Positions 17,994 through 22,792 of a DNA stretch of 54,456 nucleotides are shown one piece after another (positions within the stretch are counted from its first letter, which is position 1; every line of letters starts with the position of its first letter). The notes beneath the pieces were generated by a model, which was given only the letters and a program-made list of their open reading frames with translations, did no database searches and was not told the origin of the DNA. This stretch comes from Bacteroidetes bacterium MED-G20 (GTDB lineage Bacteria > Bacteroidota > Bacteroidia > Flavobacteriales_D > Parvicellaceae). The stretch is taken from positions 1-54,456 of the forward strand of contig CAJIYZ010000047.1 of the NCBI GenBank assembly GCA_905181675.1, given 5' to 3'. A program made the position numbers and the translations under genes.

Positions 17994-18740
17994 ATGAGTA
18001 ACAAAGACGATTGGTTTATTGATTGGTTTAATTCCAAGTATTACCACATACTTTATAAATCAAGAAATAAAAATGAAGCAAACGATTTCATTAAAAATAT
18101 TATTTCAAATTTATCTTTAAATTCAAATGAAACTGTTTTGGATCTAGGGTGCGGAAATGGAAGACACTCCATAAGTTTAAGTAAACATTTCAAACTCGTT
18201 GATGGAATAGATATATCATCGGAAAATATTACACTAGCCAAAAAAAACAAAATAGAGAATTTAAAATTTTTCATTTCAGATATGAGAAATTTTGATACCA
18301 AGACTAAGTATGGATACATATTTAATCTATTTACGAGTTTTGGCTATTTTAAAAAAAATGAAGACAACATAAACGTCCTAAAGAAGTGTAACAACCACCT
18401 GAAAAAAGACGGATTACTATTTATTGACTTTTTAAATTCGGAGAAAATAAAAATGACAATTAATGGATTAAAAGAAACAATAAATTTCGACGGTATTGAA
18501 TTTAATATCCATAAAAAAATAGTTGACAATTATGTTGTTAAGACCATTGAAATTGTTGATGGGGATTTGACATTTAACTTCCAAGAAAAGGTGCAGCTTT
18601 TTAAAATTGAAGACTTTAAGGAAATGTTGGGTATTTCAGGGTTTGAGCTTCTTTCTAGTTTTGGAGATTACCAAATGAACCCGTACGATTTAAACAGCAA
18701 TAGGTTAATTCTATGTGCCAAAAAATTAGCCAATGATTGA
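17994..18740 (+). CDS. Class I SAM-dependent methyltransferase
   Basis: VLDLGCGNGRHSISLSKHF motif I. Confidence 0.9.
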   Translation: MSNKDDWFIDWFNSKYYHILYKSRNKNEANDFIKNIISNLSLNSNETVLDLGCGNGRHSISLSKHFKLVDGIDISSENITLAKKNKIENLKFFISDMRNFDTKTKYGYIFNLFTSFGYFKKNEDNINVLKKCNNHLKKDGLLFIDFLNSEKIKMTINGLKETINFDGIEFNIHKKIVDNYVVKTIEIVDGDLTFNFQEKVQLFKIEDFKEMLGISGFELLSSFGDYQMNPYDLNSNRLILCAKKLAND

Positions 18741-19470
18741 AATTTTATTTTTTAGTGTTTTAATTGTAGGAATCTTAACAGAAATTCTCTACAAAAAGAT
18801 TGAAAAATTTAAGCCAGTAATTATATCCTTTAGTGTGGCTTTAGTTTTAACACTTTTATGCACGCATGTTTTGCCAGAATTATTTTCAACCCACAATCAT
18901 CAACTTGGCTATTATTTATTGGCAGGATTTATAATCCAAATTCTTCTGGAACTTCTTTCTAAGGGAATTGAACATGGACATGTTCATTTACATGGAGAAA
19001 TTTCCAATAAAGAACTAATCGTTATTTTCATTGGTTTAGCCATTCACTCATTTATTGAAGGAATGCCCATTAACACTCTTGAAATATCTTCTCATCAACA
19101 CAATTTGACAAATATTGACAGCTCTTTTTCAGAAATATATCTATCAACAATTCTTATTCATAAATTACCAATTGCTGCCGTATTAATTATATTTCTAAAT
19201 AGTATAAACTCGAGCTATTTAAAAAAGGTTATTTTTCTTTTACTATTTGCAGTATCTAGTCCTTTAGGTGGAGTTTTTGGAGAATTTGTAGTTAATATTG
19301 ATTTTTTCAGAGGATTTTCTTTCAATTTATTAGCTGTTTCTTGTGGAATGCTACTGCATATAACTACATTATTAATATTTGAAGACCACCACAACTCAAA
19401 AGGGAAAATTAAAAACATCCTTACAATTTCAGTTGGAATACTTACGGGTATTTTAATTTTCAGTTTTTAA
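18733..19470 (+). CDS. ZIP family metal transporter
   Basis: Multi-TM; His-rich HGHVHLHGE; AIHSFIEGMPI and HKLPIAAVLII signature positions. Confidence 0.88.
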   Translation: MIEILFFSVLIVGILTEILYKKIEKFKPVIISFSVALVLTLLCTHVLPELFSTHNHQLGYYLLAGFIIQILLELLSKGIEHGHVHLHGEISNKELIVIFIGLAIHSFIEGMPINTLEISSHQHNLTNIDSSFSEIYLSTILIHKLPIAAVLIIFLNSINSSYLKKVIFLLLFAVSSPLGGVFGEFVVNIDFFRGFSFNLLAVSCGMLLHITTLLIFEDHHNSKGKIKNILTISVGILTGILIFSF

Positions 19471-19493
19471 AAACAACATCAAATCAAAAAAAA

Positions 19494-20132
19494 ATTAAAA
19501 TAATCTTAAAAATATACTTATTAAATCTTTTTATTCTAGGCTTAGTATTTAATACGTTGGCACAAAAAAATGAAGATTTTATTCAATTCAGTGGAGTGGC
19601 TATTTCAGAAGATAGTTTACAGCCAGTACCCTATTGTAGTATAATAGATAATCAAACAAAACGAGGAACTATTTCTGATTATTTTGGATATTTTTCCTTT
19701 GTAGCAAAAAAAGGTGATACAATTATTTTCAGTAGTATAGGCTATAAAAAATCGAGGTTCACTATCCCTGATACACTTACTACCAATAAATATTCATTAA
19801 TTCATATAATGTATCAGGATACTATAATGTTAAATACAGTCGTTATATATCCGTGGCCATCCAAAGAACAATTTGCAAAAGCCTTTGTTGAAACCGAGAT
19901 ACCCAATGACGATTACAAAAGAGCTATGAACAATCTTTCAAGAGAAAAACTTAATGAAAGAATGCAGTTTACACCAATGGATGGAGCACTTAATTTCAAA
20001 TGGCAACAACAGCAAATTCAAAATAAACTATATTATGCTGGTCAGTATGCACCTATAAGCTTGTTAAACCCCATTGCGTGGGCACAATTTATTCAAGCAT
20101 GGAAAAGAGGGGATTTCAAAAACAATAAATGA
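19494..20132 (+). CDS. Secreted carboxypeptidase-like regulatory-domain protein; proposed AUU start
   Basis: CarboxypepD_reg-like FSGVAISEDSLQPVPYCSIIDNQTKRGTISDYFGYFSF. In-frame sequence upstream of the TTG at 19557 encodes a signal peptide (KIILKIYLLNLFILGLVFNTLAQ) but has no ATG/GTG/TTG. Confidence 0.75.
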   Translation: MKIILKIYLLNLFILGLVFNTLAQKNEDFIQFSGVAISEDSLQPVPYCSIIDNQTKRGTISDYFGYFSFVAKKGDTIIFSSIGYKKSRFTIPDTLTTNKYSLIHIMYQDTIMLNTVVIYPWPSKEQFAKAFVETEIPNDDYKRAMNNLSREKLNERMQFTPMDGALNFKWQQQQIQNKLYYAGQYAPISLLNPIAWAQFIQAWKRGDFKNNK

Positions 20133-22792
20133 TGATATTTAATAAATATAATTTATTGTTTCTTGTGTTATTAATTTCATTCATAGCTATTGGACAGGAA
20201 AAAATTATAGTAAAAGGAAATATCAGAGATATAAATGGAAACCCAATTAGTAATGCAAATATTAAAGCAATTACTAATGAGATAAAGGAAACTACTGGGG
20301 CAGTATCGGATAAAAATGGTTTATTCGATATTTCTATTGAAAGCAATGGAAAAACAACCATTGAAATAACCCATGTGAATTTCAAAAAAATTACTAAAAC
20401 CATAAATCCTGAAAAAAATACAGTTCTAAATCTTAAAATGAGAAACAAAGTTTTAAAAACTTTGGAAGTAGAGTACAAAGACCCCGGGAGTTCACCTACG
20501 GAAATACTTCCCACAATCAATGCCTCTAATATTGCATTGCCAAGTGGCAATATTGAAGGATTGCTTTCTTCAGTTGGGTTTGGAGTAAGGCAGAATAATG
20601 AATTGTCTAGCGGATTTAGTGTTCGAGGTGGAAACTTTGATGAAAATCTAATTTATGTAAATGGTATTGAAGTTTATAGACCTTTCTTAGCTAGATCAGG
20701 ACAACAAGAAGGACTGAGTTTTATAAACCCATCTATGATAGAAAATATAACTTTTTCAGCTGGTGGTTTTGATGCAAAATATGGTGACAAGCTTTCAAGT
20801 GTATTAGACATTTCTTACAAAGAGCCAGTAGATTTTGAAGCAAATTTATCCACTAGTCTTTTAGGAACTCAAATTCAGTTTGGAGATAGGCCAAGTTCAC
20901 TAATAAATTATAATATTGGTTTTCGATATAGGACTAATGCTTACCTATTAGGAGCTCTAGACACCAAAGGCGAATACCAACCAAGATTTATGGATGTCCA
21001 AGGGCTAATCAATTTTAACATCACTGAGAAATTAAAACTTTCCGTATTTGGAACATCTGCTAATAATCTCTTTTCAGTTAAGCCAGAGAATAGACAAACA
21101 AACTTTGGAAATATTAATGAAGCTTTGAGATTTACTGTCTATTACGAAGGCCAAGAAAATACCCAATACAAAACCTATATGGGAGCTGTATCTCTAAAAC
21201 ATCAAAAATCAGAAAATTTATCCTTGAACTATTATATTTCAACATTCAACACCAATGAAACAGAATACTTTGATTTATTAGGAGAATATAGACTTGATGA
21301 ATTGGAGAGAGACTTGGGAAGTGATCAATATGGAGATATTGCATACAACAGAGGAGTTGGAGCATTTCTAAACCACGCAAGGAACGAACTTAAAGCTAAT
21401 GTTATCAACTTCTATCACAAAGGGAATTTCAACCATGAAAACCAAAAAACATCCTGGGGAATAAAAGTACAAAACGAGCAAGTTAAAAATAATATAAAAG
21501 AATGGAATTACCTTGATTCCGCAAGATTCAACACCCCTAGAGCCGAGGATAGTATTGGATACCAAGATCCTAATAATATTCCTTATCAAGAACTTAACTT
21601 AAGTAAGTTTATTAGAGCAAATAATGAAATTGAATCTTCAAGAGTGACTGGATTTGTCCAAAACAGATTTAAATTTAACAAAGAAAAAAATGTTCATTTA
21701 ATATACAATAAAGACAGTCTAAACACTATTGATACAATATTTTCAACACAAGATTATTTTACAGCTACAATTGGTCTTAGAGCAAACTACTGGACTTACA
21801 ATAACCAAACAGTACTATCACCAAGAATAAATTTTAAATGGAGACCTGCTTTTTTCAAATTCGAAAATCAAAAAATTTCAAGAAAAAATATCACTTTTAG
21901 ATTGGCAACTGGTTATTATTACCAACCCCCCTTTTATAGAGCTGCAAGAAACTTAAATGGAGAACTCAATCCTATGATTAGAGCGCAAAAATCAATTCAT
22001 TTAGTAGCGGGAGGAGATTTAGTTTTTAATATGTGGGATAGGAAGTTTAAGCTTGGTTCTGAAATTTATTATAAATTTTTAGAAGATATTATTCCATATG
22101 AAATTGAAAATGTAAGGGTAAATTATTATGGTGAAAATTTAGCTTCCGGATATGCTAGAGGAATAGATTTAAAAATTAACGGAGAGTTTGTTAAGGGTAT
22201 TCAATCTTATGCATCTTTAAGTTGGCTACAAACTAAAGAAGACCTAGTCAATGATTTTTATTACGAATATTTTAACAAAGAAGGGGAGAAAATTATTCCG
22301 GGATATACAATAGATCAAAATATTTCCGATAGTACACGTTTTGAACCTGGACTAATTCCAAGGCCAACCGACCAACGACTTTCATTTTCTATGTTTTTTC
22401 AAGACCAAATGCCAAATGACTGGGACACAGAAAAAGTTAAATGGAGTACAATGAAAGTAAATATTAATGTTTTAGTTGGGTCTAGACTACCTTATGGCCC
22501 ACCAGGGAATCAAAGGTTTTCAGACACTTTAAGATCTAGTTTTTATAAAAGAGTAGATATTGGTTTTTCTAAAGACTTAATTAATAACGAAACAGATAAG
22601 TCAAAATTTAAAAAGAAATCTATATTAAATGGTGTGGAGTCTATGTGGATTGCATTTGAAGTTTTTAACTTACTAGATATATCCAATACTACCAACTATA
22701 CTTGGATTAGAGATGTTAGTGGCAGACAATATTCTATTCCTAGTTTTCTAACATCTAGAAGATTAAATCTTAAATTAGTAGCAAGATTTTAG
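20129..22792 (+). CDS. TonB-dependent receptor with N-terminal carboxypeptidase regulatory-like domain
   Basis: Signal peptide, plug domain (SGFSVRGGNFDENLIYVNGIEVYRP), long beta-barrel ending in LNLKLVARF; ATGA overlap with previous gene. Confidence 0.94.
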   Translation: MMIFNKYNLLFLVLLISFIAIGQEKIIVKGNIRDINGNPISNANIKAITNEIKETTGAVSDKNGLFDISIESNGKTTIEITHVNFKKITKTINPEKNTVLNLKMRNKVLKTLEVEYKDPGSSPTEILPTINASNIALPSGNIEGLLSSVGFGVRQNNELSSGFSVRGGNFDENLIYVNGIEVYRPFLARSGQQEGLSFINPSMIENITFSAGGFDAKYGDKLSSVLDISYKEPVDFEANLSTSLLGTQIQFGDRPSSLINYNIGFRYRTNAYLLGALDTKGEYQPRFMDVQGLINFNITEKLKLSVFGTSANNLFSVKPENRQTNFGNINEALRFTVYYEGQENTQYKTYMGAVSLKHQKSENLSLNYYISTFNTNETEYFDLLGEYRLDELERDLGSDQYGDIAYNRGVGAFLNHARNELKANVINFYHKGNFNHENQKTSWGIKVQNEQVKNNIKEWNYLDSARFNTPRAEDSIGYQDPNNIPYQELNLSKFIRANNEIESSRVTGFVQNRFKFNKEKNVHLIYNKDSLNTIDTIFSTQDYFTATIGLRANYWTYNNQTVLSPRINFKWRPAFFKFENQKISRKNITFRLATGYYYQPPFYRAARNLNGELNPMIRAQKSIHLVAGGDLVFNMWDRKFKLGSEIYYKFLEDIIPYEIENVRVNYYGENLASGYARGIDLKINGEFVKGIQSYASLSWLQTKEDLVNDFYYEYFNKEGEKIIPGYTIDQNISDSTRFEPGLIPRPTDQRLSFSMFFQDQMPNDWDTEKVKWSTMKVNINVLVGSRLPYGPPGNQRFSDTLRSSFYKRVDIGFSKDLINNETDKSKFKKKSILNGVESMWIAFEVFNLLDISNTTNYTWIRDVSGRQYSIPSFLTSRRLNLKLVARF

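Follow-up and report, generated by a model that had tools for sequence, protein, structure and literature searches.

A conserved AUN codon as the probable start of a secreted-protein gene across a genus of Parvicellaceae, with loss of an upstream antisense gene

Few bacterial genes are known to begin at a codon other than AUG, GUG or UUG, and in most of them a Shine-Dalgarno (SD) sequence gives strong help. In the phylum Bacteroidota the SD is rarely used and generally ignored. The pcnB gene of Escherichia coli is not known to lie behind a stop codon, unlike the gene described here. Its AUU start reportedly limits expression, as Binns and Masters are said to have described in 2002. The IF3 gene infC starts at AUU, AUC or AUA and is autoregulatory. 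In Staphylococcus aureus, cvfC1 (AUU) and ccpN (AUA) have conserved starts of this type with low output and rely on an extended SD; AUU and AUA starts give about 10% of the output of AUG in this species (PMC13009471). At termination-reinitiation junctions, modeled on M13 gene V-VII, the downstream start lies a few nucleotides behind a stop codon. The natural pairs re-initiate at AUG, non-AUG re-initiation is possible given a matched initiator tRNA but is IF3-sensitive, and SD-less re-initiation is weak and IF3-sensitive in E. coli (PMC2268962). In Flavobacterium johnsoniae, A at positions -3, -6, -12 and -13 favors initiation (PMC6847099).

We analyzed a stretch of 54,456 nucleotides from Bacteroidetes bacterium MED-G20 (contig CAJIYZ010000047.1), referred to as the window. 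The gene of interest encodes a CarbopepD_reg_2 protein and is labeled CRP here; ZIP is the gene upstream of it, AUN stands for AUU, AUC or AUA, g1 is the genus of the window and g3 its sister genus. Like infC, whose AUN start is conserved over the genus and beyond, CRP has a conserved AUN codon and appears to follow the logic of a weak start. It differs in encoding a secreted protein and in having neither autoregulation nor the SD-like AGGAGG found before infC in g1 and g3. CRP shares with pcnB a putatively limiting AUU start, but the pcnB case was described from a single species, whose ribosome uses an SD. Similarly, CRP resembles cvfC1 and ccpN in its conserved AUN and inferred low output, but it lacks an SD and belongs to a generally non-SD phylum. 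It resembles the re-initiation junctions in its position behind a stop, but its only candidate start is an AUN. Set beside the known AUN starts of infC, pcnB, cvfC1 and ccpN, CRP lies behind a stop codon, and the third letter of its AUN varies between species. A search of the open literature, with most subscription papers outside it, turned up neither an AUU-type start in Bacteroidota nor a case of natural re-initiation at AUN.

Table 1. Features of the CRP locus in the window, with related features in other loci named by locus label.
Feature	Position	Strand	Support or remark
SAM-dependent methyltransferase ORF; opens the gene run, overlaps ZIP start	17994..18740	+	methyltransferase families, all below cut-offs
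ZIP-type metal transporter ORF; TAA stop 19468-19470	18733..19470	+	PF02535 E=6e-14
In-frame TAA bounding the open CRP frame upstream	19410..19412	+	
ZIP-CRP intercistronic leader, 23 nt, A-rich, without SD or strong structure	19471..19493	+	
A9 tract, whose final A opens the proposed ATT start	19486..19494	+	
Proposed ATT start codon, followed by AAA	19494..19496	+	AUN position in congeners
Signal peptide MKIILKIYLLNLFILGLVFNTLAQ	19494..19565	+	two K, then hydrophobic core; LAQ cleavage region
CRP gene, 212 codons; stop TGA 20130-20132	19494..20132	+	PF13715 CarbopepD_reg_2 E=2.6e-11
TTG picked by the mechanical ORF track; not accepted as the start	19557..19559	+	unconserved, within signal cleavage region
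TonB-dependent receptor with N-terminal CarboxypepD_reg domain	20129..22792	+	downstream of CRP in most loci of the phylum
Antisense T9SS cargo gene	L046 1806-2909; L037 1910-2968; L039 1217-2269	-	
infC loci with SD-like motif	L132, L125, L129, L116, L118-L120, L122-L124, L130, L131, L134, L137		

A preliminary description of the window had proposed that CRP starts at the ATT at 19494, and the letters agree with most of its reading. The frame is open from 19413 to 20129 behind the TAA at 19410, the stretch from the ATT onward encodes a signal peptide, and the TTG at 19557 falls in the signal cleavage region. Between 19413 and 19556, ATG and GTG are missing from every frame and TTG from the CRP frame; a single out-of-frame TTG lies at 19433. 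The ATT is preceded by eight A's rather than the nine described, because the run includes its own first base. Dinucleotide shuffling of this AT-rich stretch reproduced the absence of starts in 45% of shuffles, and 67% lacked an in-frame start, so the absence is not significant in the window sequence alone.

We therefore read N-termini at the DNA level for CRP of the window and of 81 other loci, using comparison genomes that are metagenome-assembled except for a few single-cell ones. Of the 39 family genomes, 34 hold a clear CRP orthologue, and orthologues also occur far outside the family. All nine g1 species that hold CRP lack an ATG, GTG or TTG ahead of the signal-peptide cleavage region, and it is this sharing that makes the absence significant. 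In seven of the nine, an AUN lies exactly 29 codons before a conserved IQFSG core (six ATT, in the window and L003-L007, and one ATA, in L008). The other two species (L009 and L010) have ATC at -32, where it is the first codon after ZIP ends (UAA-C-AUC and UAA-U-AUC). The AUN is followed by AAA in eight of the nine species. In L004 and L006 the sequence reads TAA-AAA-ATT-AAA, so that only one codon separates ATT from an in-frame stop, and several AUN candidates are available in L007, L008 and L010. Outside g1 and g3, the 69 loci that allowed anchoring start at ATG, the codon used by the rest of the family. Close relatives have ATT or another AUN, and never ATG, at the position of the proposed start. 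The conserved position and the lack of a canonical start in congeners support AUU as the start in the window and strongly suggest, at the sequence level, that CRP uses an AUN start across g1. The codon would presumably be read by initiator tRNA as methionine.

These comparisons bear on two simpler accounts. The window comes from a single metagenome-assembled genome with a homopolymer adjoining the codon, and an indel in the A9 tract or a base error could hide an ATG, as the preliminary description had cautioned. Eight other separately assembled species from different projects are also startless, several of them (L007-L010) without an A9 tract, which refutes such an error at the level of the genus and makes it extremely improbable. 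It is also very unlikely that CRP is decaying, or that its product begins at TTG 19557 or an internal ATG and lacks a signal peptide. An automatic ORF caller would pick this TTG, but it is found only in the window (one codon away in L006), and the next canonical codon in the other congeners lies 11-75 codons inside the mature protein. The TTG start without a signal peptide, which had also been raised beforehand, is excluded by the absence of the codon from most relatives. Gene callers that accept only ATG, GTG or TTG would truncate CRP, remove its signal peptide and call the product cytoplasmic, or miss the gene.

Selection on the reading frame argues against decay as well. Across the nine species, the stretch of 29-32 codons that precedes the core contains no stops in the CRP frame versus 43 and 33 in the other two. 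In all nine, this stretch still encodes a signal peptide, its hydrophobic core preceded by one or two K/R. Among the five closest species, the mature protein is under strong purifying selection (dN/dS 0.03) and the signal peptide is relaxed (dN/dS 0.59). By these signatures, CRP is a real, translated gene. Its N-terminus could in principle be supplied by a ZIP-CRP fusion through readthrough, frameshifting or slippage on the A-run, with no separate start, since the two genes share a frame with a single TAA between them in L003, L005 and L007. The relative frame is 0, 1 or 2 depending on the species, however, which excludes readthrough or frameshift fusion as a common mechanism. In L004 and L006 a further stop in the CRP frame follows that of ZIP, no slippery site is conserved, and a cleavable signal peptide in the middle of the protein would make a fusion pointless. 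We regard a fusion as highly improbable.

The CRP protein is a member of PF13715 (43.8 bits against a gathering cut-off of 32.2), and its gene nearly always precedes a TonB-dependent receptor gene across Bacteroidota. A structure model of moderate quality (pLDDT 70, pTM 0.41) places the signal peptide in a helix at residues 2-22 and an N-terminal domain that matches SusC NTE and carboxypeptidase-D-like domains; the C-terminal half was uninformative. The product carries an NTE-like domain and is assigned to the periplasm or outer membrane; it may be a partner of the TonB receptor. Its N-terminal domain is distantly like the CarboxypepD-like domain of BamP from the F. johnsoniae BAM complex (NF053692, PMC12611786; PDB 9n2d chain E), which Foldseek matched to the window protein (19494-20129) with E=3e-5. 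CRP is not BamP: it scored 30.8 bits against a curated cut-off of 230 for NF053692, its C-terminal part differs, and it is encoded beside a TonB receptor.

We then placed the start codons on a tree built from CRP and the TonB receptor. The species with AUN form one clade (100/100), and those with AUN or TTG form one clade (100/99), so that two changes suffice and the AUN state arose once on this tree. In the sister genus g3, all four species (L037, L038, L039 and L040) have TTG at the fixed position -27. This conserved TTG is a possible intermediate between the ATG and AUN states.

The neighborhood of CRP changed as well. In g3, g4 and g5 the gene order is methyltransferase, ZIP, antisense T9SS cargo gene, CRP and TonB receptor, and the methyltransferase ORF keeps its place in every g1, g3, g4 and g5 locus that has enough flank. 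The antisense gene has about 350 codons and a T9SS sorting domain (Por_Secre_tail, PF18962), and is divergent from CRP across a gap of about 30-90 bp. Orthologues are present in g2, g3, g4, g5, g7, g8 and g9. None was found in the 11 g1 genomes, where only the sorting domain gave matches. ZIP and CRP are adjacent in g1, and in all nine species the AUN lies 1-30 nt behind the ZIP stop (23 nt in the window), a conserved spacing of at most a few tens of nucleotides. Neither this proximity nor the loss of the intervening gene together with the AUN state had been part of the preliminary description. Because the antisense gene is absent from g1 and the AUN state has a single origin, a single branch carries the gene loss, the new adjacency to ZIP and the disappearance of the canonical start. 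The deletion itself may have removed the old CRP start; an order in which coupling came first and the start decayed later fits as well.

We consider it highly probable that CRP is translated from its AUN, that its former start was lost with the antisense gene, and that ribosomes finishing ZIP initiate it with reduced efficiency. In this model, the g1 ancestor would have lost the antisense gene between ZIP and CRP, and the leader and canonical start belonging to CRP would have gone with it. CRP would have been left 1-30 nt behind the ZIP stop, where ribosomes or 30S subunits finishing ZIP could put initiator tRNA on the nearest AUN, helped in the subclade of the window by the A-rich unstructured leader. 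The secretory protein would then be initiated at AUN with reduced efficiency. Low output is expected by analogy, because AUU and AUA starts are so weak in S. aureus (PMC13009471). It is plausible that the AUU limits CRP expression relative to the downstream receptor, as had been suggested. The receptor ATG overlaps the CRP stop (ATGATG, window 20127-20132), so the receptor may itself be coupled to CRP and limited by the weak start too.

The proximity of the two genes indicates that re-initiation or coupling after ZIP probably drives the CRP start. A possible though somewhat doubtful alternative is that initiation occurs de novo on the A-rich leader, independently of ZIP translation and with or without a promoter inside ZIP. 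The leader is A-rich and unstructured in the five-species subclade of the window, with A at -3, -6, -12 and -13 relative to ATT in the window itself; A at -3 occurs throughout this subclade and in eight of the nine g1 species. infC also uses AUU or AUC de novo, though with the SD-like AGGAGG in g1 and g3. The basal pair L009 and L010, however, is not A-rich upstream and has its start 1 nt behind the ZIP stop. A promoter scan limited to the sigma-70 consensus gave 10 sites versus 9.4 expected in shuffles, and a terminator scan found none. The ZIP-CRP junctions showed no conserved RNA structure (z -0.6 to 1.7) and no GGAGG-like SD motif, which separates them from the SD-assisted AUN class of cvfC1 and ccpN. 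Returning to coupling with ZIP, we tentatively propose that, across the genus, SD-less re-initiation at whichever AUN follows the upstream stop replaced the start lost by deletion, while the identity of the AUN drifts. If this is true, ribosome delivery by the upstream gene, and not the start codon, defines where CRP begins. CRP offers a natural test of whether coupling can stand in for a start codon. A genus-wide AUN in an SD-less member of Bacteroidota, with an origin dated on a tree and linked to a deletion, is likewise a natural test of SD-less start choice.

We surveyed 251 orthologous gene pairs (about 0.59 Mb of G000/G023 versus 1.6 Mb of G021) for other starts of this kind. An aligned ATG, GTG or TTG start was common to 221 of the 251 pairs. 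Within this survey, only in CRP and infC does a long conserved N-terminus precede the first canonical codon. The loci of both genes were added to the survey deliberately, and infC serves as a positive control of the method rather than an independent discovery. Other flagged pairs were antisense shadow ORFs or had a Met start close behind the upstream stop. A third AUU candidate (G000 contig C10, L171, 2870-4010, minus strand) has a shared ATT in the tail of the upstream gene; a TTG at codon 9 is common to both species, and the AUU start was rejected.

infC starts at AUU or AUC in all 25 readable loci of the family, so AUN codons do serve as starts for its ribosomes. The AUU or AUC of infC is directly preceded in g1 and g3 by an SD-like motif, in most cases AGGAGG; g7 and g8 lack it. 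By analogy, this motif may be a sign of regulation through ribosomes whose anti-SD is free. It resembles the case of rpsU (PMC9976891).
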